Below, one piece after another: positions 1-32,799 of a DNA stretch of 64,000 nucleotides (position 1 is its first letter; each line of letters opens with the position of its first letter). Position numbers and translations under genes: made by a program. Under the pieces are notes generated by a model, which was not told where the DNA came from, did not search any database, and saw only the letters and a program-made list of their open reading frames with translations. Origin of the DNA: a candidate division LCP-89 bacterium B3_LCP (GTDB taxonomy: Bacteria > Electryoneota > B3-LCP); NCBI GenBank assembly GCA_005223185.1, contig NJBN01000014.1, positions 20,848 through 84,847 of the forward strand, written 5' to 3'.

Positions 1-333
1 GCTTTCCGGTGTTTTATCTATGCTTACCTCAGGACATGTTTTATGAACCAGAATCGCACGCAGAGCGACCACAAAATCATCCAGAGTAATTTTCTGTTCG
101 CCTTCCACCACACTACCCACGATAATAACATCATTATTCTCGTTATCGTAGACCATCCCTATAGGGTGCGTTATTCCACCGATTTCCATTACTTCTATTT
201 CCGAATGACCAGTAGAAATGTAACGCTTTTCCGCAGTATTGAGAGAGTACGCTATGAACGAGTTGGCAAGTGCAGTCTGAACGGAAATCAGGAGGAGGAT
301 AATTGAAAAGATCAGTTTTATTCTTTGTCTCAT
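1..333 (-). CDS. Secreted protein of unknown function, truncated by the window edge
   Basis: An open frame runs from ATG at 333 off the left edge (111 codons seen). The start is preceded by a good ribosome site (AAAGGAGAG, about 5 nt upstream). Residues 1-23 are a clear signal peptide (basic MRQRIK, a hydrophobic stretch, then a cleavage-like QTALA). The visible mature part is short, mixed strand/helix, and contains GGITHPIGMVYD and DDFVVALRAILVH. I do not recognise a family. It follows the 367-3117 gene by 33 bp on the same strand, so it is probably the next member of the large minus-strand cluster. Confidence 0.7.
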   Translation of the reverse strand, partial: MRQRIKLIFSIILLLISVQTALANSFIAYSLNTAEKRYISTGHSEIEVMEIGGITHPIGMVYDNENNDVIIVGSVVEGEQKITLDDFVVALRAILVHKTCPEVSIDKTPES

Positions 334-366
334 TTTTCTCTCCTTTATTTTCAAAGCAGATATTAG

Positions 367-3117
367 CTATCTCGAAGAATACATCAATCCATAGAATGGC
401 TGGAAAGGCCAGTCCCCCTTATCTGATATGCTCCCACTAAAATCTATGGCGACTCCTCCCGGACTATAAGTGGGAAGACTAGTTAAGTTCTGATCAATTT
501 TATTGCTAAAATCGAGATTATAATCTTTCCAACTGTTCATATTGTTTGTCACTGCGCCAGTTATAGCAGCGGTACCGGCCGCTGTACCACCAATTGCCAA
601 AGGATTTCCACCCGACGCAACTCCAGCTCCAAACGTTGCAGCAGCACCTAAACCTGCCAATCCAGCGCCAATCCCATTGATCCAAGCACCTGCCCCTGTT
701 CGATTCCAGTCGTTAACTACATCATTGAAATTACTTGTCATGCCGGTGAGTGAGGAACTCTTTGTCAAATCCGGGGTAATATTGTTATCCCATAGCTGAT
801 TAAAATCCGACGCAGAGAGAGTATTAGATTTATTACAAAAATTATTGTAGTTCGTCTGATTCGGACTTAGTACATAATTATCCCATGCTTTCGTAGCACC
901 AGTATAGTCCAATCCAAAGTAAGTTCCAGCATCTTCATCTGCTGTTAAAAGGGCAGCCATCTCTTCGAGCTCAAGACCGCTCATATATGCCTCGATATTT
1001 AATTGATTCAATCCAAAAAGCATGCTGGCTTCTGGTAATTCTTCTAAGGCAAGATTTAGATCCTCTATGGCTTTAGCCCGATCGGTCAAGATCTCAATGC
1101 AACCTTTACCGTGAACTGCAAGAGAGAAATTTCCTGAGTACTCCAATGCTTTATTGAAAGCATCCAATGCACCCTCTGCGCCGTCTTTCATTTGGATGAA
1201 CCTGAATCCCAAATTTGAGTATGGGTCAGCGAAATTAGGTAAAACATCAATGGCTTTTTCCAAATAATATCGTGCTAGACCCAGTTCTTTCTGGACTGCA
1301 TACACAACACCTAGCGCGTTCAGCGCTAATACATGTTTATCATCCAGCGCCAATGCCTGATCGAACGCTTCCTGCGCTTCATCCCATTTTTCCAGACGAG
1401 CTTTGGCGTCACCTTTGAAGTAGTGAGTGATCGGTTCCTGTGGATGTTTCCGGGCGTAGGCTTCAGCCCATTTCTCCCATTCAAGAAGATCCCGTTCCAG
1501 GTAAACGCTCAAAAACAGCGCCAGCGATTCGTTGTTGCGGTTCAAAGCCAGGCAGGCGTGCCCTTTGATCATACGCAACACCGGATAAGGTGAATTTGGA
1601 TCGATATCATCGTAGGTTTTCGCCACCTTTTTCCATTTTTCTTTGAGAATATAGTTTCCGATCCGATCGGGATCGAGGGCGGTGGGAATGGGCTGCGGGG
1701 GTGGGGGTGAGGGGATTACGGCTTTATAAAGGGTATCTCCAACTTTCCCCCTATCTTCTACAATGCCGGATTTTTTCTTTTCCGTCTCTATGCCTTTACC
1801 AACCAGAGCGGCAAGATGAGCTCCCACCTGGTAAGCGCGCTCTGCAACTTTCGTCAATGCTTCCTCTTTGGATAATCCTCCGCATTCAACGACCTCGATA
1901 ATATATCCGGCTTCCTCTAATTCCCTTTTGACCTCTTGAACTTCCGGATCATTCGAATCCCCACCGATGACAATAACCGAACCTTCCACCAGGTTAATCT
2001 CTCTGGCTTTTCTCACTACCTCAGTGACCACTTTTTCTGCCGGTTTTTGAGTGCCGTCAAAGACGAGTATCGTTTCTTGTTTGCCAATTTTATGTACTCC
2101 ATACCAGGTGTCTTTAAGTTCGAGAATGATATACTCTCCAAATGCCCTGGATTCCTTTAAATCTCCTGGTCCCAGCCATATGGTAATTCCATTGACTTTC
2201 ATAAACACTGGCAAAAGGTTACACCCTCTCACTTCTCTCGGGGTCATGAAACGGCTCCCTGTCCACTCCTTCGCCAGGAATCTTTCGTAATAACCTTTCA
2301 TCCCGGCAATATGACCACTTTTAAAGTAATCCAATCTCTCCAACGGATCAAGCCAGATACAGGTCAGGTTTGGGAATAGTTCCTTCAACTTCTTGACAAC
2401 TTCGAGATTGCCTATGGATTCTTTGATAAACCACCCTGCAGGTGCATCCCCTGCGGTGTTAAAAATCGTTACTTTGTCCGCCCCGACTTCTTGGACGGCT
2501 TTTATGGCATCTTTCTTTAAGGCACGCCCGTCATACATAAAAACGCCGACAATATGTTCTTTGTAAAATTTCCAGACGTCAGAGCATTTCGAAAAGACAA
2601 CTGTGCCGTTGCTCCCTAAGATGGCATAGAGGGCAGTGTCAACGCCCTCGCCTGCCAAGGACTTGATGACTCTTCCGATCGCTGCATAAGCACATCTACC
2701 GAAGCGTGCGACCATCGCTTGTCTTTTTTTATTGCCATAACCAGCAAGGTTGATATTCTGTACTAATTGTACTTCGAATCCTTCAACACCGGTCGCCTGT
2801 CCCTCAGTGACGCCCTCAGTAATGGTTTCATATATGTTCTGGATCAATTCTTCATCAGACATGTTAAATTCTTCATCCGGCGGCATCACGACCAATATCT
2901 GCCCTTCACTGGGCATATTAGGATAGACACCCGGCTTATTCGAAAAATCACTGCCTGTATTTAGATTAGCATTCCAGTCTCCAATACCGAAATCGGTAAC
3001 GTAGAAGGTGACTTGTTTTCCTGCACAGACTGTCGTGGTGAGGATGAGGAAAATGGTCACCATTGCATAGCTGAGACGAGTGCGTTTTATCAAATCGGTG
3101 TAAGTGTGGCTTTTCAT
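367..3117 (-). CDS. Large secreted TPR protein of the cluster, unknown function
   Basis: 916 residues with an N-terminal signal peptide or anchor (about residues 15-33, ending TTTVCAGKQ). The N-terminal half (about 35-480) is an alpha/beta region I cannot assign; it includes a segment near 355-450 with alternating strands and helices (ILVFDGTQKPAEK, GSVIVIGGDSNDPE). A proline-rich linker (PSPPPPQPIP) follows, then TPR-like helical repeats at about 500-720 (for example WDEAQEAFDQALALDDKH and LGLARYYLEKAIDVLPNFADPYSNLG). Near 810-860 is a long Gly/Ala-rich stretch resembling a glycine-zipper membrane-inserting segment. The start has AGGAGG 9 nt upstream. It lies downstream of the channel/coiled-coil genes. 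TPRs suggest a scaffold on the outer face; its exact role is unknown. Confidence 0.75.
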   Translation of the reverse strand: MKSHTYTDLIKRTRLSYAMVTIFLILTTTVCAGKQVTFYVTDFGIGDWNANLNTGSDFSNKPGVYPNMPSEGQILVVMPPDEEFNMSDEELIQNIYETITEGVTEGQATGVEGFEVQLVQNINLAGYGNKKRQAMVARFGRCAYAAIGRVIKSLAGEGVDTALYAILGSNGTVVFSKCSDVWKFYKEHIVGVFMYDGRALKKDAIKAVQEVGADKVTIFNTAGDAPAGWFIKESIGNLEVVKKLKELFPNLTCIWLDPLERLDYFKSGHIAGMKGYYERFLAKEWTGSRFMTPREVRGCNLLPVFMKVNGITIWLGPGDLKESRAFGEYIILELKDTWYGVHKIGKQETILVFDGTQKPAEKVVTEVVRKAREINLVEGSVIVIGGDSNDPEVQEVKRELEEAGYIIEVVECGGLSKEEALTKVAERAYQVGAHLAALVGKGIETEKKKSGIVEDRGKVGDTLYKAVIPSPPPPQPIPTALDPDRIGNYILKEKWKKVAKTYDDIDPNSPYPVLRMIKGHACLALNRNNESLALFLSVYLERDLLEWEKWAEAYARKHPQEPITHYFKGDAKARLEKWDEAQEAFDQALALDDKHVLALNALGVVYAVQKELGLARYYLEKAIDVLPNFADPYSNLGFRFIQMKDGAEGALDAFNKALEYSGNFSLAVHGKGCIEILTDRAKAIEDLNLALEELPEASMLFGLNQLNIEAYMSGLELEEMAALLTADEDAGTYFGLDYTGATKAWDNYVLSPNQTNYNNFCNKSNTLSASDFNQLWDNNITPDLTKSSSLTGMTSNFNDVVNDWNRTGAGAWINGIGAGLAGLGAAATFGAGVASGGNPLAIGGTAAGTAAITGAVTNNMNSWKDYNLDFSNKIDQNLTSLPTYSPGGVAIDFSGSISDKGDWPFQPFYGLMYSSR

Positions 3118-3276
3118 TTTTCTGCCCTCCTAATTGGAAAAGGTCATATTGTTTATTTGTACAGTCTGCTACTATGATCTGATGTGATACCTTCTAGTAT
3201 ATTCTATTCTGGATGAGTTCGAATTTCCGCTAATAATTACCTCTGGCTCTGAATCCATATCGATCCGTAGCCACAA

Positions 3277-4533
3277 TTACCCCCCGCCTGTTCTGCCTCT
3301 ACCACCACCTCCAGGACCGGCCATAAGTGGATCATCGTTTGGCCACCAGCCCACGACAAATTTCTTTTTCCAGGCGATATCCCGCGCTTTAATATAAAGA
3401 TCAAAAGAGTTTTTTCTGACGATGAACTTCAGCCAGTGCTCATTGGGATTCAGCTTATTAAGCTCCTGTCTGAAGACACAATCGGGATTATCTAATTCAT
3501 CAAATGAGTCACCTTTTACATGAGGCTTTTTTGTGAGTTGCTGGAAATGATCATTCAGATTTCGATATTCATAGTTATTTTCATTAACGCGATAAAGCTT
3601 GTTATTAACCGCCTCAAAACCAATCAGCTTCTTACCCTCAACGGCATCGGGATCGTCAGGATTGAGCTTGTTAGTCAGGTCCTTTAACTTCGTTTTTAGT
3701 TCGTCCTTTTCGGCGGCAATATTATCGGTGTCTTCTTTATAAAGGCTTATCTCACGCTCCAACAGAGTAGTATGGTTTACCTGCTCGCTTAATTGCTGTT
3801 GCAGCAGAGAATCATTCTGGGCAATTTCCTCTTCGATGCTTTCCAGTAGCACCTCCTTCTGCGTGATAGTCTCTTCTAATTCGGTTATGCGATTACCGAG
3901 CTCCCGAGCTTGGTCGGCACTCTGTGCTTCTGTTTTCTTCTCTTGCAGTTCTGACTTCAACCGGTTGATATCATCTCGTAATTTGGTTGTTTCACGATCT
4001 ATGGAATTCAGCTGTTCGTCATCTCGAATTCGCGCCTGTGTTGTCTCCAACACCCTTCGTAGCCTCTCTATTTCTCTTTCTAAATTCGTGATCTTTTGAT
4101 CCAATTCTTCCAGTAATTCTGTTTTATCCGCATCTTTAACCGCTTTCTCCAGCTCTATCTTCAAGCGATTCAGTTCAGCGATTTTACTTTGCACTACATA
4201 GTATAATCTTCGCTTCTCTCCTTCAAGCCTATCTGCAACCTCTTTTTCAGCTTCCTGGCTTGCTGCTGTGACTTTGACTTCCGCTTCCAAAATTTGCAGA
4301 TTCATTTCAAACGTCCTGATCTCATTCTCCAGGTTACGTATCGTGCTTTCTATGTTAGCGATATCTCCTCTGAATCGCTCTCTGTCCTCCTCAGACTGCA
4401 CCAGTCCGTCCACATCTGTGGATTTTGTTCCTGTTGTGGGAATGATAACCCAGATCGTTCCCAGTAGAATCAGGGCAATAATGGTCAGCAGGGGATCCTG
4501 AAATATATCTAATACGGAAGTTTCTTCCTTCAA
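3277..4533 (-). CDS. Membrane-anchored coiled-coil protein B, putative partner of the MotA/ExbB-like protein
   Basis: I place the start at TTG 4533: it has AAGGAG 6 nt upstream and overlaps the preceding stop as TTGA, so translation is coupled. A longer frame to 4590 would run 61 bp into the upstream gene. The product is 418 residues. One transmembrane helix lies near residues 13-32 (LLTIIALILLGTIWVIIP), then a very long heptad-rich coiled coil (about 45-300), and a C-terminal domain with FIVRKNSFDLYIKARDIAW followed by a Gly/Arg-rich tail. The C-terminal pattern resembles that of the upstream paralogue (FVVLFVRPEGVETF). No OmpA, TolR or MotB peptidoglycan-binding domain is visible. One helix plus a coil next to a MotA/ExbB protein suggests a B-type stator or tether; that role is inference. 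Confidence 0.75.
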   Translation of the reverse strand: MKEETSVLDIFQDPLLTIIALILLGTIWVIIPTTGTKSTDVDGLVQSEEDRERFRGDIANIESTIRNLENEIRTFEMNLQILEAEVKVTAASQEAEKEVADRLEGEKRRLYYVVQSKIAELNRLKIELEKAVKDADKTELLEELDQKITNLEREIERLRRVLETTQARIRDDEQLNSIDRETTKLRDDINRLKSELQEKKTEAQSADQARELGNRITELEETITQKEVLLESIEEEIAQNDSLLQQQLSEQVNHTTLLEREISLYKEDTDNIAAEKDELKTKLKDLTNKLNPDDPDAVEGKKLIGFEAVNNKLYRVNENNYEYRNLNDHFQQLTKKPHVKGDSFDELDNPDCVFRQELNKLNPNEHWLKFIVRKNSFDLYIKARDIAWKKKFVVGWWPNDDPLMAGPGGGGRGRTGGG

Positions 4534-5678
4534 GGTGTGCTCCTTTTTAAGAAGTCTAACTTCTGCTTTTTTGCGAGAGGTTCCGTACAATATTCAGATG
4601 TAATCTCTGTAACCCCATCGTGCACCGCTTCAAATGTTTCAACTCCTTCCGGCCGCACGAAAAGGACCACAAAGTCATAGTCGTGACAGAGGTTTTTCCA
4701 AAAGCTCTTTTCCGCAAACTGTGACGAGGAAATCAGCCGCCCTGCGGGGTACGTAATGATAGCTTCCCGTTGACAATCTATATAAAGTGGATTCTGGTAG
4801 GCGGTTCCCCCGCCGGTTCTCGACTGTATTCTCAAAATGTCAATTTCCTCCTGAAGAGCCGCCTTCAAATTCTTGAGCCGCGCTAATTCTTCCTCGAGGT
4901 CTGACTGCGTCAGTTGTAAGGAATCTCCTATTGCCTTGCCGTGCTCAGGGGAAAGCTGCTTAGATAATTCCGCAATAAGATCTATGTAATCTTGGAGCTC
5001 CTGTTTGAGTTGAATCAACTGATCTTCTTTTTCTGCAAGACTACCGGGGTCAACGCCTGCATCAAGTATGGCCTGTATCAGTCTATCAATTTCTTGGTGC
5101 AGTCTTTTATGTTTATCCCGCAATCTATCCAATTCCTTTTGTTTACCCTTTAATTGTTGCTGATTAACCGGATGCTTGGATACAGTCCGATTCAATTCAT
5201 TAAGATCACGCTTCAGTTTTTCAAGTTCTTCGCGCAGTTTCTCTATCTCCACCTGTTTGTTGATCACTTCATCTGGGTCGGGAAGATCCTGGAGATGCTC
5301 AAGCTCCCGTTTCAGTTTGGCGATCTGTTGGATCAAGAAGTCATATTCTGCATCCAAACGGCTGACTTCCGATTGTTTCTGGTATTCTCTGTTTTCTGCG
5401 ACACTTTCCGAGTCAGGGTGAAGAGACTCAAACTCTGCCCTCTTCCTTTCTAATATATTGAAGATATTATCTTTAAGCTTCTCGAATTCTTCAAGTTGTG
5501 CCTCTTTGTCGGAGCGCTCTTTCAGCAACTGTAATGCAACTGTTATGGCGCGATCCGATTCTTCCGGTGATTCAATATATGCGCTGGTTACAGCTAAACT
5601 CAGAGCGAAGAATGCCACCACGCCAACAATGCAACATAAAAGTAGCAATATTTCAATGTTGCCTTCCCGATTCCTCAC
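4530..5678 (-). CDS. Membrane-anchored coiled-coil protein A, putative partner of the MotA/ExbB-like protein
   Basis: 382 residues. Translation starts at GTG 5678, overlapping the stop of the MotA/ExbB-like gene as GTGA, with GGAGATAGGAA just upstream. A single transmembrane helix lies at about 9-33 (ILLLLCCIVGVVAFFALSL). A charged coiled coil spans about 45-285. The C-terminal globular domain of about 90 residues contains IITYPAGRLISSS and FVVLFVRPEGVETFEAV. The next gene has the same architecture and a related C-terminal pattern, so the two look like diverged paralogues, perhaps forming a heteromer. The order channel - coil A - coil B recalls MotAB, ExbBD and ZorAB pairs, but the usual periplasmic peptidoglycan-binding domain is absent. 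Function is inferred from context only. Confidence 0.8.
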   Translation of the reverse strand: MRNREGNIEILLLLCCIVGVVAFFALSLAVTSAYIESPEESDRAITVALQLLKERSDKEAQLEEFEKLKDNIFNILERKRAEFESLHPDSESVAENREYQKQSEVSRLDAEYDFLIQQIAKLKRELEHLQDLPDPDEVINKQVEIEKLREELEKLKRDLNELNRTVSKHPVNQQQLKGKQKELDRLRDKHKRLHQEIDRLIQAILDAGVDPGSLAEKEDQLIQLKQELQDYIDLIAELSKQLSPEHGKAIGDSLQLTQSDLEEELARLKNLKAALQEEIDILRIQSRTGGGTAYQNPLYIDCQREAIITYPAGRLISSSQFAEKSFWKNLCHDYDFVVLFVRPEGVETFEAVHDGVTEITSEYCTEPLAKKQKLDFLKRSTP

Positions 5679-6676
5679 TTCCTATCTCCAGAATTTTTGG
5701 ATTTGTTATTCTGTGACCTACGCGATTGTGTAGTTTTGGTGTTTTGGTTCTTGGTTAATTTATCGATAGATAAACTCAGTCTCGAAACCGATTTCTCGAT
5801 TCCCTCAATTAACTGGTGGTTTTGATCGTGTATTTTTTCGAAGACTCCAGTTATGGTAGAGGATAATTCTGCCTGAATTCCGGATAAAGTGTTTTCAACG
5901 TCCGCCGGAGCTGGTCTCGCGTGAGCATCTGCTGGAAACGGTTGCGGACTACCGTCCGCCTTTATCTGTCCGACGAGCACCCGCGCTCTCTCATCGACTC
6001 GGCTGACAAGCAGTTCTTCGCGATGTCGCAAGAAAGAAGTCATTAGGATAAGGGCCACTGTATAACCCAGAGCCAACAGTGTTGTGTCAAATGCAAAACT
6101 CATTGAGGCAGCAAATCCTTTCAGAGCAGCGCGAAGTGCGAATATATCAGTAACTTCCGGAAACTTGAGCATACCCGTTGACAATCCTATAACAGTGCCG
6201 AGAAAACCGATAACGGGGACTATACTACGAAGGCTATTCAAGATTAAATGTCCCCGTTCTACCTCAGCCATGTCGCGCTGGGAGAGCTCCTCATTGAGCC
6301 GGATGATGTCTTCGCGGTAAATGAAAGCCTGCAGGAGTTCCCGAATACGCCTCAATGTCAGGCTTCTACCGTGCTCTGTTGGCATAGATCTGATGATCTT
6401 GCTGGCATCCTCATGGGAAATCAAGTACTCCGGTAATTTGACCTTTTCAAAAGCCTTTTCCTCTTTTCTGAACAAGGAATAGCGTTGGAACCAGAATAGG
6501 ATAGCGATTGAAAAAAGCCATGTATTTAGTAATTGAATAGGCCATGCCCGGATTAAGAAACTATAAAAGTAGTTGTCTTCAGGAAGTAGGTATTTTACAG
6601 CAAGGGCTACAATCCCCACCTCCAATCCCAGCACGATATATAAAAGCATAGAGTTTGAACCGCTCTGTGATCTCAT
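5675..6676 (-). CDS. MotA/TolQ/ExbB-family proton-channel-like membrane protein
   Basis: 333 residues from ATG 6676, which has AAGGAGA 7 nt upstream; a 31-codon upstream extension lacks a ribosome site and is rejected. Four membrane helices are predicted at about 11-30, 46-64, 150-170 and 190-214. The last two carry the family signature: PVIGFLGTVIGLSTGM (the GTVxG stretch) and FAFDTTLLALGYTVALIL. The large cytoplasmic segment between helices 2 and 3 is typical of TolQ/ExbB/MotA. The C-terminal tail (about 240-333) is amphipathic and then Lys/Asn/Ser-rich. Family members conduct H+ or Na+ to energise a partner protein; here the partners would be the two coupled coiled-coil proteins. Whether it is an active channel cannot be told from sequence alone. 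Confidence 0.88.
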   Translation of the reverse strand: MRSQSGSNSMLLYIVLGLEVGIVALAVKYLLPEDNYFYSFLIRAWPIQLLNTWLFSIAILFWFQRYSLFRKEEKAFEKVKLPEYLISHEDASKIIRSMPTEHGRSLTLRRIRELLQAFIYREDIIRLNEELSQRDMAEVERGHLILNSLRSIVPVIGFLGTVIGLSTGMLKFPEVTDIFALRAALKGFAASMSFAFDTTLLALGYTVALILMTSFLRHREELLVSRVDERARVLVGQIKADGSPQPFPADAHARPAPADVENTLSGIQAELSSTITGVFEKIHDQNHQLIEGIEKSVSRLSLSIDKLTKNQNTKTTQSRRSQNNKSKNSGDRK

Positions 6677-7104
6677 CTTGAATCTCCTTTTATTGGTAAG
6701 CTTCAGATTAACCGTTATAAGAAAAATCTTTCTGAGCCATACCGTACGTTGAGTTCGATCGTGCTCCACACTACATAAGAGCGATAATTTTTCATCAGTA
6801 TCTTTTAGAACGAGGATTACAGTAGATCTCCGATTTAAATCGGAGATGCAGGATTATTGTCGTGTACTTTCAGAGATACCGTGTAAAGGTGATGATATAT
6901 TAGACTCCAGAACGGAGCTATATCTCGTGAGTGAGGATAGTAAACCGTGTGTACAAACTAACAAAGCAAATCATATCTTCCCTGCAGATGCGGGATATAG
7001 CTATCTTTAGATATTTATCAAATCTGGTTAGTTTGTTAGGTTATTAAACTTCGTATTTCAAATAGGTCGTGGTTATTTTATTATTATTGGAAAGGGCATT
7101 TGCG
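6677..7104. other. Gene-free gap inside the cluster, probable regulatory region
   Basis: About 430 bp with no credible reading frame on either strand, by far the longest gap in an otherwise tightly packed cluster. It separates the kinase gene from the channel/coiled-coil genes. It holds a 22-bp perfect palindrome (6826-6847) and a widely spaced inverted repeat, CAAACTAAC near 6953 and GTTAGTTTG near 7026. A second promoter for the channel half of the cluster is plausible, but I see no strong sigma70 hexamers. Confidence 0.5.
6826..6847. promoter_or_regulatory. 22-bp perfect palindrome, candidate operator
   Basis: Two 11-base half sites (ATCTCCGATTT and its exact complement) meet without a spacer. 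The symmetry stops at both ends. No T-run follows on either strand, so it does not look like a terminator. It lies 150 bp upstream of the MotA/ExbB-like start, in the only long gap of the cluster, which fits a binding site for a dimeric regulator. This is inference from symmetry and position. Confidence 0.4.
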
Positions 7105-10100
7105 CTACTTGGGCACGCAGACGAGACGGAATCCAGTGATCGATTCCCTGGCGCTTTGAATTCGTCTGGTTCGTTTCGTGCAGGTCAAGTACTTGGGATC
7201 TGTGGTTTCGTAACTGCCGCCGCGGACGATCTTCTCCTGGCCAAACATCGGTCCTTTGGGATCGGTGACCTGCGACGATGGGTAATAGTCGTACCAATCC
7301 TGACACCATTCCTGGACATTACCGTGCATATCGTAGAGGTTCCAGCCGTTAGGTTGTTTTTGGGCGACAGGATGAGTTGTCCTTCCCGCATTAGCACCAT
7401 ACCAAGCATAATCACCTAACATAGCGGGATTATCTCCAAAGGAGAACCGCGTATTGTTTCCGGCTTTGCAGGCATGTTCCCATTCGGCTTCTGTAGGAAG
7501 GCGATAAGTATTGTTCGGATCTAAACCGTTCAGCTTTATAAGAAAGTGCTGGATCTCCTCTTGGGACACATTTTCAACCGGATTCTGCTGATTCCCCTGG
7601 AAAAATGAGGGATTCGATCCCATGACTTCAATCCATTTTGACTGTGTAATTTCGTGGTTTCCCATCCATATCATTCTAGTAAATTTAACTTGATGTTTCG
7701 GCCTTTCATCCAGATTCAAACCCTTCACGTTTGATTCGTATCCCATTTCAAGACTGACAGAAGGCACCCAGACAAACTCCATCCCAGAAAAGGTTCTTTT
7801 AATACCTGCTTTCATCCACTGGTAGGATTCTTCGCGGTAATTCAGAGCATCCGGATAGTTCGCTGGTTTCTTATCGATTTGCTTCCCAAGCTCAATAACT
7901 TCACCCCATTTTTTATAGGCTTCTTCGTAGTTTTTTACTGAAAACAGTTCTTGAGCTTTGTTATATTCCTGCTTGAAGAGACTAAACAACTCGAGTTGCG
8001 CGATAGCATGGGTACGCTGTTGCCTGGCTTTTGAGAGACTGGTTGGAAGGGGTTTTACTTTTTCCCCTGTTGCAATGGCAGATTTAAAAGCTGCAATAGC
8101 TTCATCATAACGAGCGGCTTTCAGAAGCTGTTTAGCTCTGCTGAAGGTTGTCTCATATTCCTGCTTGAGGCGTTCATTCTCCTGGATCTTGTGAACAACT
8201 TCATCTTTTAGATCCTTAGCGTTTTGCAGGTCTGTGGGTATAGGATCCATTCTCTCTGCGGTTCCAATTGCCTCGGTTAATTTATCCACAGCCTTTTGCC
8301 AGCTCAGTGGATCTTCCGCACGTGCCAGTGGTATGGCTTCGTCGTAAAGGCGCTTGTACTTCCAGTATCTCACAATCTGAGTGTCGAGATGTTCTTTCAG
8401 CGCACTGGTTTGGGCGAGGTCGGTCGGTTGGGGATTCATTTTGTTCGCGATAGTGAGTGCAGAATCCACTTTTGTCCTGGCAACTTCCCAATCATCCGGA
8501 TCGGTCGAGTTGCGAAGCGGTTTAGCTTCTGCCACCAGTTCTGTATATAACTGATAATTGGCAATCTGTATTTCTACTACTTGCTTCAGGATCAGAATTT
8601 CCGATAAGTTCGGTGGCATGGGATTCATCTGGTGGGCGATATCGATCGCGGAGGTGAATTCTTGCGCGGCCGCCTTCCAAACTTCGACGTCTTTTGATTC
8701 ACGCCAGTGCTGCGCTTCCTCGACAAGCTTTGTGTATTCCTCAAACCGGCTGATTTGTATTTCTACTTTCTCTTTCAACTCTTCCAGGTAAGCGTACTCA
8801 GAAAAGCTGACTTTCATCTCTTTCGCGGTTTGGATAGCGCTATCCAACTTTACAATAGCCAGCGACCAGTTCTTTGGATTAGGCGACATTTGTAGAGATT
8901 TGGCCTCCTCAATAAAATGTTCGAACGCGTGATAGGATATAATGCGGGTCTCTAACTTCTGCTTTAAATCTTCCACCTTGGAATAATCGGAAGGTGCTGG
9001 ATCCATTTGAGTGGCAAAATTCAGTGCTTCGTCACACAGTACTACTGCCTGCTCCCAGTCCAGAAGCTCTAGCGATTGCTCGAAATCTTCCGCCCGTGAG
9101 ACGATTTCCTGGTACTGTCTGTACACCCTAAGTTGGCTCAGCAGACTCTGTCTGATTTCGATAATTTCAGTTAAATCCCTGGGTCTTTTCTTCAGGCTAT
9201 CAGATAAAATGATAGCCTCATCGTACTTAGTGACAGCTTTCTCCCAATCTTCATAATTTTTTGACTTTATCAAACGGCTGGCATTTTTTACAAGTTGTTC
9301 ATAACGATCTATTAGATCTTTTGAGCTCGAAGCGACTTGAACCTGAGGGGAGGGAGGTGCGGGTATGACTTGCATGATAATAGTTATTATGCTTACAAGC
9401 AGAATAAGCGCTAGAACTATCAATACTATGGTAGCTGAAGATAGCTTCTTAGATTTACTCTCCTCACCTGGATCGACAACAGGTGGGATTTTACCGCTTG
9501 AAGTTTCCGGTCTTTGCCCTAACCGTGGTTTGTATCCCTCGTCCTCCAAGAACTGCTGGACCTCCTCTAACGTCGCTCGTTGGTTTGGATCTTTCCGTAG
9601 CATGGAAGAAATAATACGGTGGTATTTTTCCTGTAGCTTTGCTTGAATCTTCCGCTCCGGATCCTCGTTCATCTTTTTCTGCAAGATTTCCGCATCGGTT
9701 TTCCCTTTGAAAAGACTTTCCCCGGTAAGCATTTCAAACCATATCAATCCAAGCGAATAAATATCCATTTGGGGAGTAGGACAATCACCTGAGTGATGTT
9801 CTGGAGACATGTAGGGAAAAGTGCCGTAAGCACCGATAGTTGTGCTGTTCGATGACAATTCCTTCGCAACCCCGAAATCGCAAACGACGACTTGCATATA
9901 GTCCCCGTCCCGGAATAATATATTTTTTGGTTTTAGATCGCGATGAATCACTCCTTTCTTATGAGCTGCCTCCAAAGCTTGGCAAACCTGTGCTATAATC
10001 GTGGTGGCAACCGATTGCTCGGGTTTTTTCTTCTTCTCCAGATAGTCCGATAAATCGGTATTGCCTTGAACGTACTCCAGCTCGATAAAGGGGATGTCTA

Positions 10101-10479: not shown

Positions 10480-10561
10480 CGCTACGTCCTCACGATCTTG
10501 GTTGTTGACTTCGCAATGGAAAGCTGAAATTAAAGGATATCAACAGCCAGGTTGATATGTT

Positions 10562-11899: not shown

Positions 11900-11907
11900 T
11901 GATCAGA

Positions 11908-13434: not shown

Positions 13435-13591
13435 TATAGCCTCCTATTTATCTGAAAACATGTCCTTACACTCGCCATGGTACACAATGGTTCGGACCGC
13501 ACTGCTTGCTGTCTGGATCTTCTCGTTATCGCTGTTTGTCCATATGAAATGGGGCAGATTGTTTCAGAGTGATTCTGAACTCTTGAAACGC

Positions 13592-15754: not shown

Positions 15755-15880
15755 CACTTCTCCTCCTTTTGCCCTTTTGTAAGGTAGTTGTTGAGATCAA
15801 CACTATTGCAAGGGTTAACATTTACCCTGACTATTCCTCTGTAATAATCGCAATCCTCCTCTGATAGCCCTCAAAGCTCC

Positions 15881-18781: not shown

Positions 18782-18856
18782 TGGTGTACTCCTTTTATCT
18801 CACTATCCAACTTATCAAGGCTTCAGAATTGCTGATTCCTGGATAAGTATGTTGAT

Positions 18857-22827: not shown

Positions 22828-22868
22828 TCTTACAAATTCCTGATAAGGTTTTACATGTTGAGAAGTTT

Positions 22869-24692
22869 CTACGGCACAATCATCAAATCTTTGATATCCC
22901 TGAAAAAGTAGACCGGATCAGGGTCATCGCGCAGCTGCCGCCAGAATGGGTTGTCTGTTTCGAATCGCTGGCTACGTATCAAGGCAGACTTGGGAAGGTT
23001 CCAGAGGAAAATTGCCGCGGCATCTTCGTTGAGCAAGCGGTGGATGGTGCGTAGAATGCCTCGCTTATTTATCAAATCCGTTTCGTTGAGCAGAAAATTG
23101 ACTTGCTGATTGACCAAATGATTTCGATACCGGAGAAAATTTGAACCTTCGTCATGTTCCTCGAAGTAAAACATTTTCAGCACTCGTTCATATCCCTGAT
23201 GGTATACAAATTCATCGAAAATTAGGTCAAAATTGCGTTTGTTATAAGCCCGATCATACCACTGGTTCGCAGGAATCGTCTCAATGTGAATGATAAGACC
23301 AATCTGTTCCATCCGGCCCTTAAATGATGACGCCACCCGAATCATATCCAGACGTTCAGCCGGAACGATCAGTACAAACTGTTGGACAACACCGAGATAC
23401 TCCAATTTCCCGCTGTTGGTACCGTACCTCAATTCGTTTGGTGCAGCCTCACCGATATCAAGCATGATTTCTGCAGCAGAAATATCAGGGGATACAATCA
23501 CATTATCATTGTAAGCCAGGTCGCTATTTCGAAAGGGGCCTGTTACGATATTCCCGCTTGGATAAACCTCCTTGAGCATGAGGCGAATGTTGGTATACCG
23601 ATACATCGCTTTGCGGAGTTCGCGTACTTCTGCAAAAACTCGCGAAGAGTTGCGCTTTGGATTGCAATTAAAGCCGATATAATAAAACGCATCGATCGCA
23701 TAATCCAGAAATACGTACCCTTCCATTCCAAAAAAATCGTTCATTTTTTCTGGCGGAATCTCGAGGATCATATCTAGCGCTTGAGGATGGCTGAGCGGCA
23801 ACTGAAAATTGTCTAACAATGGTTCATAGTTGTTGTATTGTCGAAATTTTACCTGTTGAATGTTGCCGGTTCCACCCGCTACCTCTTGCAAGCGCGTGAG
23901 GACTCTTTCATTAGTGCCACCTTCCGTAGCAATATCGTAGTAAAATCCTGTTCCGGAATAGGGCAATTGCGGTAGAGGACGTCTGCGATCCCTGATGCCA
24001 TGCTTATATTGATCGCTGAATACAATTCCGAAGTTCAGCATCCTTTCAAAATCAGTGGCCCCACGGTTAAATTCGATTTCGAGTTGCAATGGATCGGGAC
24101 AACCCCTCACATCTTTGATATAGTTTTTCAAAACCATCAAATTGGGATAGGTTCTGGGATTGCGTATAATCCCGAGAGTATGAATCACATCATCAGCTAA
24201 AATAGGAAAAATGTCCAGAGAGGGAGTGATCCAGTTGTTGCCCTCTGCTACCTGGCATTTCATCAGGCTGGCATTGTGGACATCGTCTGTTGGGATAAGG
24301 TTGCCCGCCTTTTCGGCGAGAAACTCAACTTGGCTTAAAATCCCGGGTTTATAGACCAAAAGGACCCGTTGACCGATTATCTCCAGCCCGGAGTACTGGT
24401 ATAGTTTCGGATACATTAGACCGTTGAAAAGCACCTCAACGGGATTGATACATGTGATCGGATCCATAGTTCCGATATACTGAATATGACCGATACGCAG
24501 TTCTTGAGCGAGCGTAGTAGATCCCCTGAAGAGAAGCAAAATCAAAGCCAGAACAGTAAATAGCTGCGCTGTTTCCTTCAGCACCTTGGCATTTCTGTAG
24601 GGTGTGGGATAGTGATGACAACAAGAGGTTATTTCTCGATTCCTGCCCAGTAGTTCTGGTTCAGTTGTCCTTACGTTGCCTTCCTGGTTCAT
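22869..24692 (-). CDS. Extracellular solute-binding protein, family 5 (peptide-binding type)
   Basis: 607 residues. A 36-residue cytoplasmic leader precedes a hydrophobic signal segment (about 40-62, ending STTLAQ); no lipobox cysteine follows, so it is soluble or anchored by the uncleaved helix. The start ATG 24692 has AGGTG just upstream. The mature part shows family 5 features: LRIGHIQYIGTMDPIT at the mature N-terminus, VLFNGLMYPKLYQY, GTGFYYDI, and helical C-lobe segments such as AEVRELRKAMYRYTN and the late KRNFDLIFDEFVYHQG. It should deliver a ligand to the fused permease. In this cluster the ligand could be a signal rather than a nutrient; that is inference. Confidence 0.85.
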   Translation of the reverse strand: MNQEGNVRTTEPELLGRNREITSCCHHYPTPYRNAKVLKETAQLFTVLALILLLFRGSTTLAQELRIGHIQYIGTMDPITCINPVEVLFNGLMYPKLYQYSGLEIIGQRVLLVYKPGILSQVEFLAEKAGNLIPTDDVHNASLMKCQVAEGNNWITPSLDIFPILADDVIHTLGIIRNPRTYPNLMVLKNYIKDVRGCPDPLQLEIEFNRGATDFERMLNFGIVFSDQYKHGIRDRRRPLPQLPYSGTGFYYDIATEGGTNERVLTRLQEVAGGTGNIQQVKFRQYNNYEPLLDNFQLPLSHPQALDMILEIPPEKMNDFFGMEGYVFLDYAIDAFYYIGFNCNPKRNSSRVFAEVRELRKAMYRYTNIRLMLKEVYPSGNIVTGPFRNSDLAYNDNVIVSPDISAAEIMLDIGEAAPNELRYGTNSGKLEYLGVVQQFVLIVPAERLDMIRVASSFKGRMEQIGLIIHIETIPANQWYDRAYNKRNFDLIFDEFVYHQGYERVLKMFYFEEHDEGSNFLRYRNHLVNQQVNFLLNETDLINKRGILRTIHRLLNEDAAAIFLWNLPKSALIRSQRFETDNPFWRQLRDDPDPVYFFRDIKDLMIVP

Positions 24693-24731
24693 ATTGCACC
24701 TAGTTTGGCTTGGTAGTAAAAGAAGTTGATA

Positions 24732-26162
24732 CTAGCGGTCTTTGATGAAATATCTAAGAGCCCACGTGCAATTATAAAGATCACAGAATTCCTGAGATGC
24801 CTGATATACTGCATTTGTGTTGAAGATCAGGTGTATCGCTTTAGTCGGATAGACCCAGCCTAGAAATTTACCAAATCTGATTAGAAAGAGTAACTCATCG
24901 GTTTTCATTGTAGTGACCTGCTTGTTGATAGGTATGGTCCGTGATGCAATATTGATCTGATTCAAGGTATCCCCTCGCATCCACTCAAACTCACTCTCCA
25001 TACGGTAAACCCAGGCATAGTTCCGGTAATCAAGCATTGAGTGATGTTCCTTCTCCAAAACCTCGGAACAGGAGGGAATGGATCGAATTTTCTGTTGCAG
25101 GTCCTGGCCATACTGCTTCAGAGCATAAAGGACAAATAGGCTCTGGTTTACAGCGGCTAGATGATTACATTCAATGATGTACTCTAAGGCTTGGGCAGCT
25201 TCAACCGTTTTATTTTGGGAGATGGCGTACGCATAAGTCAACCCCCACCATCGAGCGTGGAGCTCTTCGTCTTTTAGAGGTAGACCCAGCTTCTTAATTC
25301 GGTTGATGAGAATCACTACGTCATCCCATTTTGCCCGTGTCCCGTATAAAATAGCGAGATCAATCAGATCCCCTGCTGATTGGTTCTCCATTCGATCGTC
25401 TATAAAACGTCGAACCAGGAGATCACAATACAAGGTGAGATCGATCAGGTCATAGAATCTAACCTCGAATGCAAAGTTGCCGGAGGTTTTTCGATAAACT
25501 TCCGCAACTTCAAATTTTCGGAAACTGAAAGAACCGGGGTAAGTCAGGCCGTAATGAACTGCTCCATCGAGAGTCTTAAGGTGATCGAAATCCCTCGCTT
25601 TCAGAGTATCATATCCCAGTTTATAGGTTTTGATGATGCGTGTTGGATGGTGAAGATCTGTCGCTAAAGGGGAAGCAAGGGTACTCATATTCTCCTGAAA
25701 AAGCTGCGCAATTCGGAGCAAAGCTTCCGACTGATTCGATGGTGGATTTGTTTGAATTATACAGGAAGCTACACTCTTCTCAAGGACTTCGATGCAACCG
25801 GCATTAGGCAGGTAATAGGGATGCCGGTGGGCAATGGCCAGTGTCTCGGCGGGCGAGGAAAAGAGGCGAGACCACGTTTGAATGTCATACTCTACCAGTT
25901 CAATAGAAGCTTTTCTGCTACGATACAGTTCTAAGTTTGATCTGGCAACTTTCAGATCATTCATGAGATATCGAGCTTCGGCAGCCCATAGATGAGCCAA
26001 AATCGATCCCTCCTCAGCCTTAGTTTCGTAAAAAAGTGCGAATTCCTCGGGCAAAATGCGGCCTAATTCATCGTAAAAAAGAGCCTGTCCCAGCATAACC
26101 TCAGCTGCGAGGCAGGGTGGTGTAATTAAATACAGCAAGCAGATAAACACTGCACACTTCAT
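24732..26162 (-). CDS. Secreted helical-repeat protein, unknown function
   Basis: 476 residues with a clean signal peptide (1-20, PPCLAAEV). The mature protein is largely helical, with TPR/Sel1-like spacing (AEARYLMNDLKVARSNLELY; AILYGTRAKWDDVVILINRI; AYAISQNKTVEAAQALEYII), and has nine or so cysteines. No catalytic motif is recognised. The ATG follows the upstream stop by one base, with AAAGGA 8 nt before it, so it is co-translated with the propeller gene. Its position just upstream of the solute-binding protein suggests an accessory periplasmic factor. Confidence 0.7.
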   Translation of the reverse strand: MKCAVFICLLYLITPPCLAAEVMLGQALFYDELGRILPEEFALFYETKAEEGSILAHLWAAEARYLMNDLKVARSNLELYRSRKASIELVEYDIQTWSRLFSSPAETLAIAHRHPYYLPNAGCIEVLEKSVASCIIQTNPPSNQSEALLRIAQLFQENMSTLASPLATDLHHPTRIIKTYKLGYDTLKARDFDHLKTLDGAVHYGLTYPGSFSFRKFEVAEVYRKTSGNFAFEVRFYDLIDLTLYCDLLVRRFIDDRMENQSAGDLIDLAILYGTRAKWDDVVILINRIKKLGLPLKDEELHARWWGLTYAYAISQNKTVEAAQALEYIIECNHLAAVNQSLFVLYALKQYGQDLQQKIRSIPSCSEVLEKEHHSMLDYRNYAWVYRMESEFEWMRGDTLNQINIASRTIPINKQVTTMKTDELLFLIRFGKFLGWVYPTKAIHLIFNTNAVYQASQEFCDLYNCTWALRYFIKDR

Positions 26163-26163
26163 C

Positions 26164-27552
26164 TTAAAATCCTTTCATAGGCGCCAGGAGGACAACGTCA
26201 TGCTGGCCCAAATAGCCAAAATAGTACCGGGATGTCATCAACATGAAGCGGTTGTCTCCTGAAATTGCAAGGTTCACGTTTGAATAGACTTTTATAGAAG
26301 GCTCCCAGAATATACCTTTTTCTTCAAGTAACTTGGATTTAGCTTCGTATTCCTGTGCTTTCTGAGTATCTCCACTCTTTTGTGCCTTCTGTATATCAAC
26401 ACTGTATCGCTTGATGGTAGAATTGCGGTAACCCTGATCAGGTAGACTCCATGACCTTACCGACTCTGCGGCATTTACCTGACGGGGAGATCCCCCTGTC
26501 ACATCACAGATGAAGATAGGCTGGAATTCTCCCGGATTGTTCGTCAACCTAATGTAAATCAGAGAATGTTCCCATTTCCCATGTAACCAGCGAATGCTGC
26601 TATAACCTCTGTAGTTCAACTCCAGGGCCTGCACCGGTGCCGGATCAATAAGCTGCAGCTTGCCGGCTTTAAAATCATACGCATATAGGCGGTAGGATAC
26701 GCTCGAGCTCATTTCTGAATTCGAATAAAAAGCTAGATATCTTCCGTCATCTGACCAGGTGGGATTGACATTCCCGAAGACTATTGAGGTATCGCAAGGT
26801 GGCAGATCAGCACCGATTTCTTTCAGTTCCTTTCGACCTTCCCAGATAAAAATCCGCCGCTCGCCTCCTCGATTGGCCAGTTGCACCTCTATAGCAATGG
26901 TTTTAGGATCCCCGGGTCGATAATGCGGATTCCATTTCGTGCCCGGGATAGGTACATCCAAAGCTTTCCCGTCTTCAAACAGCTCGCCATCCTGCGAATA
27001 AACAGTTTTTCCGTCAGTACCGATGTCAGGATGGCGGCCAGCGGTTTCACCTTTGAAATAAGTCTTGGCACTGATGACGGACTTTTTTCCTTTATACAAA
27101 TGAGAACGGCCCTGGTGAGAACTGCGTACAATAAACCAGGGGGTATTTTTCTTTGGGCTCCAACAGAAATCATATTCGAAGCTATTTGACCGATGGTCGG
27201 TGAATTCCATAGGCGTGTTGTCCAGATAATCGCGAGGATCCAGCATTCTATCCGCTAAATCGTTTAAATCGTCTGCCTGGGATAGAGTCAGTAAATGGTA
27301 ATTGCCTCTGCTTTCCAGGGGATCCTCTGCCCGCTGGTAAACGTAGTAGCTGGCCATCGGTGTTTCACGGTTATCTAAGAAGAACTCCGGCAATCCGAAA
27401 TCCCTGTCTTGCTTCTCTATGCCCTCTCTATTGTAAAAGAGGACATATTCGCCGATTTCTTCCCCTGCGTAGGACGAACAGACTGTCAGGCATACTAATG
27501 CAATGGGGGCAAGCCGAGCATATTTCTCGTATCGGTTCTTATATGTTGACAT
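26164..27552 (-). CDS. Secreted TolB/WD40-like beta-propeller protein
   Basis: 462 residues from ATG 27552, which has GGAG 9 nt upstream and overlaps the previous stop by 14 bp; the longer frame to 27597 is less likely. Signal peptide near 14-30 (PIALVCLTVCSSYAGEE). PD40/TolB-type blades are visible: VNPTWSDDGRYLAFYSNSE, YRLYAYDFKAGKLQLIDP, SLIYIRLTNNPGEFQPIFICD and LAISGDNRFMLMTSRY. A lysine-rich helical insertion (about 390-420) interrupts a blade. Such propellers bind other envelope proteins; no enzyme motif is seen. It is the second gene of the cluster. Confidence 0.78.
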   Translation of the reverse strand: MSTYKNRYEKYARLAPIALVCLTVCSSYAGEEIGEYVLFYNREGIEKQDRDFGLPEFFLDNRETPMASYYVYQRAEDPLESRGNYHLLTLSQADDLNDLADRMLDPRDYLDNTPMEFTDHRSNSFEYDFCWSPKKNTPWFIVRSSHQGRSHLYKGKKSVISAKTYFKGETAGRHPDIGTDGKTVYSQDGELFEDGKALDVPIPGTKWNPHYRPGDPKTIAIEVQLANRGGERRIFIWEGRKELKEIGADLPPCDTSIVFGNVNPTWSDDGRYLAFYSNSEMSSSVSYRLYAYDFKAGKLQLIDPAPVQALELNYRGYSSIRWLHGKWEHSLIYIRLTNNPGEFQPIFICDVTGGSPRQVNAAESVRSWSLPDQGYRNSTIKRYSVDIQKAQKSGDTQKAQEYEAKSKLLEEKGIFWEPSIKVYSNVNLAISGDNRFMLMTSRYYFGYLGQHDVVLLAPMKGF

Positions 27553-30205
27553 TGACGATAACTCCACATTTGTGAGCGATGAATAACCTGTTGCCATTAT
27601 GGCCTATCCCGATTACACTCCAGTCCTTCAATTGAAGTCGGTCTCCATATCGTGAAGATATCCCTGATCCAGTATAAATAGTCCGAGCTTTTCCTGTCGA
27701 TATATCGACTTGGTAAACGTTCCCTTTATCGGTGCCGCAGAAGAACATATTGCTATACAGATGAGGTGCAGTATGAATGGTTGATCCGTCTATGTCTTGT
27801 TCCAGTGATCCTGAATGGATGCGCTGAGATTGGTCGAAAGCATTACCTCTGGGAATCACATACCATGTGCCTCCTTCAGACATCAGGAGGATATTTGACT
27901 CATCGGCGGTTTGCCAGGACCTTAAAGGCAGGAAAGCATCTTCATATAAACTCAATGGAATTTGACGCGTTTTTTGCATGTTGCGAAGATCAATCCAATG
28001 TCCGTAGGCATTACCTGTAACCACCCAGGTATAGTCCTGGTCTGCGAGATGATAGACGAAACGTACGTCACTGTCTAATTCCACTTCTCTGATTGTATCC
28101 AATGTAATGGAACGTAATTCCTGATTATAAGCAATCGAGATTTCTATCAGTTGATCACCCGAGAGGATGTGCATAATATCAGGTGAACTTGCACAGGGGT
28201 AAATCTCATTGATTTGTGAGTAAATCCCTTTAAGAGAACTTTCTTTAGGCATTCGGTAAGATACTCCACTTCCTTCCGAACTGCTTCCACCAAGTTCCAA
28301 ATAAGACTGACCGTCAAAATGTTGCGCAGAATACAGTAGCCCCACTCTGTTATTTAGAGGATCAAAGCCGAAGTTTACTATACTAAGACCATTGAAAGCT
28401 GGAATATTGATCGTATTTCCATCCGTGTTTAATAAGAACTTCCCCACCTCTCCCTCCATAACGGCGACCCATAATTGATTGTCATAAAGCACCGGTTCGT
28501 CCAGGAATATAGCTCCCGGGGCACTTATTTTAACGGCATTGTCTAATTTGGGGAAATAGGGTATTCGAAAAATGGACTGGTTCATATCCAGCAGGAGAAT
28601 TTCGTCATGCGTGAAAGCAACAGATTTTGCACTATTAACAGGCTCTATACCAAACCGGTTCAGTTCCTTCTGCTCGAGGAAATCATAGCAGACCAGCTCG
28701 CTCTTTGGACTCGGGATGGTCTGATAAAGAAAAAATAGATGTTTATGAGGACTCACCGTGGTTAAAATGGGTTTGAAGGCATTGATTTTTTCAAATTGTG
28801 CTAAACTATCCTCTCGCCATTCTTCATGTGTATAGGGATCCGGTTGGCGGAATACGTATATTTTGAGCAAATCGCCGAATAAGAAGAAGTGGTCCGGCCT
28901 GGACCATTCTTTGTAAGCTTGGTATAAATCAATATGAAGATTAGAGGTTTTCTGCTGGTTTATGATTTTTTCAGGTAGATTTTTCAGCTTAGTGGTCCCT
29001 TCATTAGGATCATAGTGCAACAGATGTATCGTGAATGTTACTTCATCAGTTTCTTCATCCACTCTGTTGACCATGGTATCGACAACAGCGATCGTAGTTT
29101 CCTGGGTATATTGAAGCGGAAAAACCTTCTCAACAATCGAGCGCGGTATAATCCTGACGCGAGCCAAACTCAGGTTACTGAGAGTATGTTGTGATAGACT
29201 GTGAACATGCTGAGGTTTGAAGGCAGTATTAGCTGAAAAATCCCAGATCAAGGTCGAATCCTGTCTCCCTAATTGGATTAAATCAACAAAAAGAAAAATC
29301 CTGTGGCTGTTCGGTTCATAATGCGGTTGCATATGAATTTCCATCTCGGAAAAAGGGATCTGCCTCAATTCTCTGATAATTTTTTCGATTTCACACAGAT
29401 CCCAGGTAGGCTCAGCGCAATTGAGCCAGTTAGCCAGGAGTGCACATTGACCAGTTTGATCTTTAGCTCCCATCAGGATTTTACTTTGAACTACTGGTGT
29501 GTTTTTAGGGTAACTGTAGAACAGAAGCGGTGGAGAGGTGGCAGTACAATTTTCAGGCAGAGTCAGTTCTTTTGTGATAGTTTCGACGAATGATTCACTA
29601 CTGGGAAGGTGGTTAAAAGAACTGTAATGCAGTTTACTCCCTCCGTTTGTAATATAGATGAGATCGTATCGCTGGTGGAGATCTCTCTCATAATTGAGAA
29701 AAATGAAATTGCGTTCGACTGAAATTTCTTCCCAAAGTTCATTGGCCGGAAATAGATGTTTACCATTTAATTTTGACACGACCATCATTCGATCCGGCTT
29801 TTTACCGGTTTCATCCAGCATGAAGAGAAAAACGGCCTGGGCGCGTTGCAACATATGGAATTCTCTAGCTAATCCGGTCAATGGGATGGACAGTGTCCAC
29901 AATGATCCAGTTTTTCCGAACTGCTGGTCCAGATTGACTGCGGCGATCAAGACCTGGTTCTGGATGTAATCAATGTCGTGGTACAAACAGATGTGATCAG
30001 GATCCGACTGCTCTAACAGCCCCGTCATTTGTGTGGATTCATTTAGATCGTACCAAAAATCCAGTGCAGAAGCATTGACTTCAGGTTGTTGAGCCGACAC
30101 CTGCGGGATAGGGAAACTCCGTAGCCAGGACAACACAACAATCGTCAAGGCACACTTTAGAGCGAATTGATTTTTTGTACTTAATAGAAGGCGCATTTTC
30201 CGCAC
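27539..30205 (-). CDS. Large secreted beta-propeller-like protein, first gene of the cluster
   Basis: 888 residues. GTG 30205 and ATG 30196 are both possible starts; neither has a strong ribosome site. Signal peptide about 17-38 (ending QVSAQQ). The middle and C-terminus consist of repeated beta-strand units with aromatic/Asp-Gly turns (LLYSAQHFDGQSYLELGG, YTWVVTGNAYGHWIDLRN, MFFCGTDKGNVYQVDISTG, RLFIAHKCGVIVNVNI), reading as a quinoprotein/WD40-like propeller. The N-terminal 350 residues are also strand-rich but unassigned. No active-site motif is visible. It opens the minus-strand cluster, after 960 bp without a convincing gene. Confidence 0.72.
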   Translation of the reverse strand: MRKMRLLLSTKNQFALKCALTIVVLSWLRSFPIPQVSAQQPEVNASALDFWYDLNESTQMTGLLEQSDPDHICLYHDIDYIQNQVLIAAVNLDQQFGKTGSLWTLSIPLTGLAREFHMLQRAQAVFLFMLDETGKKPDRMMVVSKLNGKHLFPANELWEEISVERNFIFLNYERDLHQRYDLIYITNGGSKLHYSSFNHLPSSESFVETITKELTLPENCTATSPPLLFYSYPKNTPVVQSKILMGAKDQTGQCALLANWLNCAEPTWDLCEIEKIIRELRQIPFSEMEIHMQPHYEPNSHRIFLFVDLIQLGRQDSTLIWDFSANTAFKPQHVHSLSQHTLSNLSLARVRIIPRSIVEKVFPLQYTQETTIAVVDTMVNRVDEETDEVTFTIHLLHYDPNEGTTKLKNLPEKIINQQKTSNLHIDLYQAYKEWSRPDHFFLFGDLLKIYVFRQPDPYTHEEWREDSLAQFEKINAFKPILTTVSPHKHLFFLYQTIPSPKSELVCYDFLEQKELNRFGIEPVNSAKSVAFTHDEILLLDMNQSIFRIPYFPKLDNAVKISAPGAIFLDEPVLYDNQLWVAVMEGEVGKFLLNTDGNTINIPAFNGLSIVNFGFDPLNNRVGLLYSAQHFDGQSYLELGGSSSEGSGVSYRMPKESSLKGIYSQINEIYPCASSPDIMHILSGDQLIEISIAYNQELRSITLDTIREVELDSDVRFVYHLADQDYTWVVTGNAYGHWIDLRNMQKTRQIPLSLYEDAFLPLRSWQTADESNILLMSEGGTWYVIPRGNAFDQSQRIHSGSLEQDIDGSTIHTAPHLYSNMFFCGTDKGNVYQVDISTGKARTIYTGSGISSRYGDRLQLKDWSVIGIGHNGNRLFIAHKCGVIVNVNI

Positions 30206-31103: not shown

Positions 31104-31143
31104 TAAAAATACCCCAACGACGCTAAGTCGACAATTGGGGTAT
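31104..31143 (-). terminator. Rho-independent terminator downstream of the tRNA remnant
   Basis: A 9-bp stem (ATACCCCAA with TTGGGGTAT) encloses a second 4-bp stem (CGAC/GTCG). It is followed on the minus strand by five T residues. It lies 28 bp beyond the 3' end of the tRNA fragment on the same strand, so it is most likely the terminator of the original tRNA transcript. Confidence 0.75.
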
Positions 31144-31170
31144 CCTCTGTTTATCCTACTATTTAATTGT

Positions 31171-31199
31171 CGGGGCGACTGGATTTGAATCAGCGACCA
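31171..31199 (-). pseudogene. 3' fragment of a tRNA gene (probably tRNA-Pro), likely att site remnant
   Basis: On the minus strand the sequence reads GTCGCTGATTCAAATCC and then AGTCGCCCCG with A at the discriminator position. That is a T-arm plus the 3' acceptor strand; its complement would be 5' CGGGGCG, typical of tRNA-Pro. The T-stem has one mismatch (CTGA against CCAG). No 5' half, D-arm or anticodon arm is present beyond 31199. A tRNA 3' end cut off like this is the usual scar of tyrosine-recombinase integration, and an integrase remnant lies 1.2 kb away. Confidence 0.65.
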
Positions 31200-31226
31200 C
31201 CTCAAGAAGATATACATTTATTTGTT

Positions 31227-32678: not shown

Positions 32679-32754
32679 TCTCGTGCAAGGTTTTTGCAAG
32701 GTTTCATACCCTGAAATCCACCAACATCCACTAAAATCCCCACTCATAAAGTAT

Positions 32755-32782: not shown

Positions 32783-32799
32783 TCAATGCTTTGTACTTG

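Follow-up and report, generated by a model that had tools for sequence, protein, structure and literature searches.

The window analysed here is a 64,000-nucleotide stretch of contig NJBN01000014.1 from the candidate division LCP-89 bacterium B3_LCP. A long run of minus-strand genes in it combines phospho-signalling proteins, an ABC importer and a MotA/ExbB-type motor, which raises the question of whether these genes encode one trans-envelope system and whether that system is found in other bacteria. The run, which was translated and scanned for protein families, comprises 15 complete ORFs (367-30205) and one ORF cut at base 1. It continues beyond base 1 with at least seven further same-strand genes on the same contig (DUF1598-like of 1190 aa, NfeD, SPFH, TPM-FGE, TPR and two others), which include further secreted proteins. 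About 22 genes lie on one strand, and the junctions inside modules are short or overlapping. All the parts named in a preliminary description of this DNA (kinase, PP2C, FHA, vWA, importer, motor, propeller and TPR proteins) are present on the minus strand. The secreted proteins encoded in the window are:

27539-30205, minus strand: 888-aa secreted protein with propeller-like repeats by eye, without a family
26164-27597, minus strand: 477-aa secreted PD40 (TolB-like) propeller protein, from the family scan
24732-26162, minus strand: 476-aa secreted protein, helical by eye
15881-18781, minus strand: 966-aa secreted vWA protein with a signal peptide and an incomplete metal site
13592-15757, minus strand: 721-aa TPR protein, secreted, with a membrane helix at its C terminus
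367-3117, minus strand: 916-aa secreted TPR protein
1-354, minus strand: N-terminal part of the 1190-aa DUF1598-like secreted protein, which continues off the window

The vWA assignment is weak and under the cut-off (23.8 bits versus 27), and the metal site, read by eye, has DNSEA in place of DxSxS. Two DUF1598-related secreted proteins are encoded in the island described below (L002 4736-6088 and C3:17629-21200); no description of DUF1598 function was found in the literature searched. The island also encodes a protein that joins a TPM domain to a second FGE-type domain (L002 13892-15952); this second FGE-type domain and the one in the kinase are related.

The phospho-signalling triad is encoded by three consecutive genes:

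7105-10479, minus strand: kinase, PF00069 (150 bits) with an FGE-sulfatase domain, PF03781 (119 bits)
10562-11899, minus strand: PP2C phosphatase with a membrane helix (TM 296-314) and a short periplasmic tail
11908-13434, minus strand: FHA membrane protein (FHA 35 bits)

Hydropathy analysis revealed membrane helices in all three proteins, as the preliminary description had stated. The kinase contains a membrane helix (residues 7-25), the kinase domain (residues 58-309), a second membrane helix (residues 351-369), eight 63-aa repeats (residues 393-893) and the FGE-type domain (residues 901-1120). The FHA protein contains a signal peptide, a beta domain, two to three of the shared 63-aa repeats, a membrane helix (residues 335-353) and a cytoplasmic FHA domain (residues 425-499); a genome-wide family scan detected no other FHA domain. 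The catalytic motifs are kept in the kinase, the PP2C and both nucleotide-binding domains (NBDs) of the importer. The topology predicted from the positive-inside rule and the helix positions places the kinase, PP2C and FHA domains in the cytoplasm and the repeats in the periplasm; in both the kinase and the FHA protein, the repeats adjoin a membrane helix.

When the window proteins were compared with each other, the single link was that between the kinase and the FHA protein. Residues 393-893 of the kinase form eight tandem units of ~63 residues each, and the kinase-repeat profile matches the FHA protein at an E value of 1.3e-19 (two clear units and one weak), with no other match in the window or at the other loci examined. 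In the whole genome, 11 of 11 matches of this profile fall in the kinase and FHA protein genes, and the 385 other genomes yielded only five weak single matches. A repeat family private to these two proteins points to one sensor pair, and the kinase and the FHA protein probably form a coupled sensor. Modelled from sequence alone, the repeats of the FHA protein are predicted to be helical with good confidence. The model of the periplasmic part matches known folds at the level of helical bundles, spectrin-like among others; these matches are no better than usual for helical bundles, so no fold name is claimed. The repeats may represent a common helical bundle type, in which case the sharing would reflect common origin and not a shared ligand. 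Of the earlier proposal, membrane phospho-signalling with envelope sensing is supported, and the periplasmic repeats tie the kinase to the FHA protein; synteny across several phyla, the check suggested with that proposal, is not supported.

The importer genes are as follows:

22869-24692, minus strand: solute-binding protein, SBP_bac_5 (43 bits, over the cut-off)
20809-22827, minus strand: fused double permease (OppB-like and OppC-like) with 12 predicted helices
18857-20812, minus strand: fused double ATPase (OppD-F like) with both sites intact

A peptide-type ABC importer cut to three proteins had been described, and the scan points to an Opp-like set of three: a fused double NBD, a fused double permease and SBP_bac_5. 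The NBD scores 123 bits, over the cut-off. The permease scores 17.4 bits versus a cut-off of 26.4 for BPD_transp_1, and 25 bits, also under the cut-off, for an OppB-like NCBIfam model.

The motor trio lies on the other side of the kinase gene, behind a short intergenic gap:

6826-6847, no strand: 22-bp perfect palindrome ATCTCCGATTTAAATCGGAGAT, a candidate operator in the gap 5´ of the motor trio
5675-6769, minus strand: MotA/ExbB-type channel subunit (PF01618) with an S/T-rich cytoplasmic tail
4530-5678, minus strand: ExbD-like partner type a, coiled coil, no Asp at the membrane-helix start
3277-4590, minus strand: ExbD-like partner type b, coiled coil, conserved Asp at the membrane-helix start

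No gene was found in the 335-bp gap between the kinase and the motor trio, so a single transcript is not necessary, and the gap and the palindrome suggest that the motor trio is transcribed separately. The channel with two coiled-coil partners was recovered as described: the channel subunit scores 37.4 bits with PF01618 (MotA_ExbB; cut-off 22.9) and carries a GFLGTV motif, and neither partner has a Pfam ExbD match. In the alignment with homologs from the other phylum described below, type b keeps S-x-L-D-I and type a is without the Asp; among the sequences compared, one is truncated where its contig ends and another has a disrupted reading frame at this point. The presence of the Asp in one partner only suggests an unequal axle, comparable to AglQ/S, itself a case that is still open (PMC9389320). 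The single-sequence model of the ExbD-like C-terminal domain (pLDDT 53) is too poor to use, and no family model covers the tandem ExbD-like pair.

The cluster is almost certainly the cargo of an integrative island of ~50 kb (49.95 kb), in which it is wholly contained and which was inserted at the 3´ end of a tRNA-Arg(CCG) gene by a tyrosine integrase since broken, as judged from the following features:

32799-32872, minus strand: tRNA-Arg(CCG), island insertion site (ARAGORN; Rfam 66.8 bits; same neighbours in relatives)
32797-32848, minus strand: 52-bp attachment repeat (3´ half of the tRNA, from the anticodon stem), with a perfect copy at C3:3640-3691
32683-32702, no strand: 20-bp repeat GTGCAAGGTTTTTGCAAGGT, a candidate integrase arm-type site
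32066-32690, plus strand: broken tyrosine recombinase with a frameshift and an internal TAA, in which the HxLRHT and LGHSSVTTTEIYTH stretches are readable
31167-32006, plus strand: 279-aa ORF next to the integrase that may belong to the element itself; no relatives found
31104-31203, minus strand: tRNA-like 3´ fragment and a terminator-like hairpin with a T run (by sequence; the fragment is unmatched in Rfam)

The second copy of the 52-bp repeat has the same orientation and lies 50,004 bp away, left of the window. The 20-bp repeat recurs at C3:3725-3744, just inside the other island end. The longest word shared in 200 shuffles is 18 bp, compared with 52 bp and 20 bp for the two repeats. The C-terminal region of the recombinase matches PF00589 over the cut-off (28.3 bits at 32373-32573). 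The fragment at 31168-31203, unlike tRNA-Arg, is one that we take to resemble tRNA-Pro, without a match in Rfam; lying inside the island end, it may be a relic of an earlier insertion elsewhere. The island was judged by the Islander definition, which requires an intact tRNA gene, a displaced 3´ fragment of it in the same orientation and a tyrosine integrase inside, over a length of 2-200 kb (PMC4383910).

The GC content of the island is 44.1%, versus 48.1% and 47.0% outside. In three genomes of the same family (G001, G003 and G004), tRNA-Arg(CCG) carries no island and is followed by hpt and then thiC, as named from reading of the sequences, with tRNA-to-hpt gaps of 50, 56 and 274 bp, respectively. 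The block of ATP synthase, an RnfC-like gene and tRNA-Arg(CCG) is common to the window and these three genomes. The far flank of the island, which carries an M14 carboxypeptidase (C3:441-3377), is unlike that of the relatives. The hpt and thiC genes of the present genome are located on another contig (G000:C12:18287-20180, L095) without an adjacent tRNA, which indicates rearrangement on the far flank as well. The genes immediately outside the two ends (33006-35129 and C3:441-3377) encode sorting tails for type IX secretion, and such tails are absent from the scanned island genes. No conjugation or phage structural families were detected in the scanned island genes, and no relative was found among plasmids, phages and viral contigs. 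Because the cluster is island cargo, the adjacency of its genes is weaker evidence for one machine than it would be in a vertically inherited operon.

We then sought orthologs across 386 genomes, of which the same phylum contributes 39 (both totals include the present genome); for distant relatives, a search with a single sequence is weak. No ortholog of the permease, the vWA protein or the 63-aa repeats was found in the 385 other genomes (38 from the same phylum). A scan for the permease across 85,000 species gave generic OppC matches only, and L043 matches by chance and has none of the remaining cluster genes. FHA loci found elsewhere in the phylum (such as G033 and G017) do not correspond to the cluster described here. 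FHA-rich clusters of another kind, which include PP2C genes, occur in other families of the phylum (G007:C10 and G021:C168; L031-L042). The C-terminal domains of the two motor partners recur as an adjacent pair in another small phylum, with the first-type domain present in four of four genomes. The tandem pairs are located at L049 12194-13515, L050 300-1918, L061 11630-13227 and L062 7412-9035; they are followed by a HEAT-repeat lipoprotein, where the contig reaches, and no kinase, FHA, ABC importer or MotA genes lie next to them, where the contigs allow. The synteny in several phyla that would have spoken for one system thus did not appear, and the claim of a new conserved trans-envelope system is not supported: no second genome with the cluster was found among the 385 others, which leaves no conservation argument for one system. 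The cluster is rare within the genomes searched, and no description of this gene combination was found in the literature. The data support a one-genome mosaic, acquired horizontally, with a coupled kinase-FHA sensor.

Taken as a whole, the locus is best explained, in our judgement and with rather better than even confidence, as island cargo encoding a trans-envelope phospho-signalling unit. In the proposed mechanism, the kinase and the FHA protein would display the same repeats in the periplasm next to their membrane helices, so that the two probably recognise a common ligand or a secreted partner, or bind one another. Binding would activate the kinase inside the cell. From the biochemistry of the families, the FHA protein would bind phosphothreonine and keep the phosphorylated target at the membrane, and the PP2C would reset the phosphorylation. 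The closest tested precedent is TssL in Agrobacterium, a component of a membrane machine on which an FHA protein reads phosphothreonine (PMC3953482). The likeliest targets, speculatively, would be the MotA/ExbB-type motor with its Ser/Thr-rich tail and, after it, the ABC importer; such phospho-control of either one is a tentative proposal. The extracytoplasmic side would be made up of the secreted vWA, propeller and TPR proteins. It is doubtful that the island is a self-contained, horizontally moving package in which one periplasmic repeat sensor directly gates both the motor and the peptide importer. An island that delivers an envelope phospho-signalling unit together with a transporter and a motor would show that trans-envelope control systems can be acquired whole. 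The kinase and the FHA protein, with their shared repeats, offer a clear test case for the matching of a bacterial kinase and its reader through outside domains.

The same genes could have been gathered without any working link, with three separate modules (kinase-PP2C-FHA unit, importer and motor trio) collected by the integrative element. We regard this mosaic origin as possible, short of likely. It is consistent with the lack of co-conservation, with the occurrence of the motor-partner domains in a second phylum, where neither kinase nor ABC genes accompany them (first-type in four of four genomes), and with the gap and palindrome between the kinase and the motor genes; the tRNA-like fragment and terminator inside the island end hint at more than one insertion event. 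However, the repeats shared by the kinase and the FHA protein tie these two together, and the short or overlapping junctions within modules and the ~22 genes on one strand also argue against it. An error of assembly or binning, by which foreign sequence was joined to the host contig, is very improbable: the 52-bp repeats at the ends could mislead an assembler, but the contig is a single one of 84.8 kb in an 18-contig genome with 0.36% contamination, its right flank is collinear with relatives up to the tRNA, and the tRNA, repeat and integrase remnant stand in textbook order.

Two functional alternatives concern what the cargo encodes. Genomic islands are well known as carriers of defence, resistance and metabolic genes. 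A new anti-phage system, with a motor as in Zorya and a kinase as in Stk2-type defence, is in keeping with the frequent carriage of defence by mobile islands, and PADLOC returned a weak ZorA match and strong but unspecific kinase matches. It is nonetheless quite unlikely, given that ZorA scores 15.8 bits versus a cut-off of 100, that PADLOC matches on the cluster are limited to generic kinase and coiled-coil models, and that the numerous secreted proteins and the solute importer are out of keeping with defence. A secretion machine, type VI-like or other, under PpkA/PppA/Fha control is suggested by the kinase, PP2C and FHA activities, which the cluster has in common with the threonine phosphorylation pathway; we give this reading hardly any weight, since no Tss family occurs in any island gene and the FHA protein has a signal peptide, a membrane helix and periplasmic repeats. 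The preliminary description had noted the absence of secretion tubes, ter genes and defence effectors, and the scan agrees: the island genes contain no Tss or ter families and no nuclease or other effector.

Compared with known systems, the island resembles Islander-type tDNA islands in its tRNA gene, displaced fragment and tyrosine integrase beside the tRNA, and differs in the broken integrase, the unusual envelope-cluster cargo and the lack of visible phage or conjugation genes (PMC4383910). The importer resembles the Opp/Dpp peptide importers in its SBP_bac_5 protein, its OppD/F-like ATPase and a permease that is OppB/C-like at scores under the cut-offs; here, in contrast, the permeases are fused to one protein and the ATPases to one, giving three genes in total. 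As in ZorAB of Zorya, a MotA-like protein has a coupled membrane partner, but the match is under the ZorA cut-off, no OmpA-like domain was found and ZorC, ZorD and ZorE are missing. In the TerY-P triad, a cytoplasmic TerY vWA protein occurs with a PP2C and a kinase, and ter genes lie near. This triad was considered and rejected, as the vWA protein here has a signal peptide and an incomplete metal site, and no ter families occur in the cluster. The PpkA/PppA/Fha threonine phosphorylation pathway of type VI secretion (PMC3953482, PMC6082577) likewise places a membrane Ser/Thr kinase, a PP2C and an FHA protein near a membrane machine; the present cluster differs in having no Tss genes and a membrane-bound FHA protein whose repeats are homologous to those of the kinase. 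Relative to the 5:2 motors ExbBD, TolQR, MotAB and AglRQS (PMC9389320), the partners are unequal, with the Asp in type b only, and their C-terminal domain is unmatched to the TolR, ExbD and OmpA families. The trio resembles these motors in its MotA/ExbB fold with GFLGTV, in the single N-terminal helix of each partner, in the Asp with which the membrane helix of one partner starts and, as in AglQ/S, in having two different partners.
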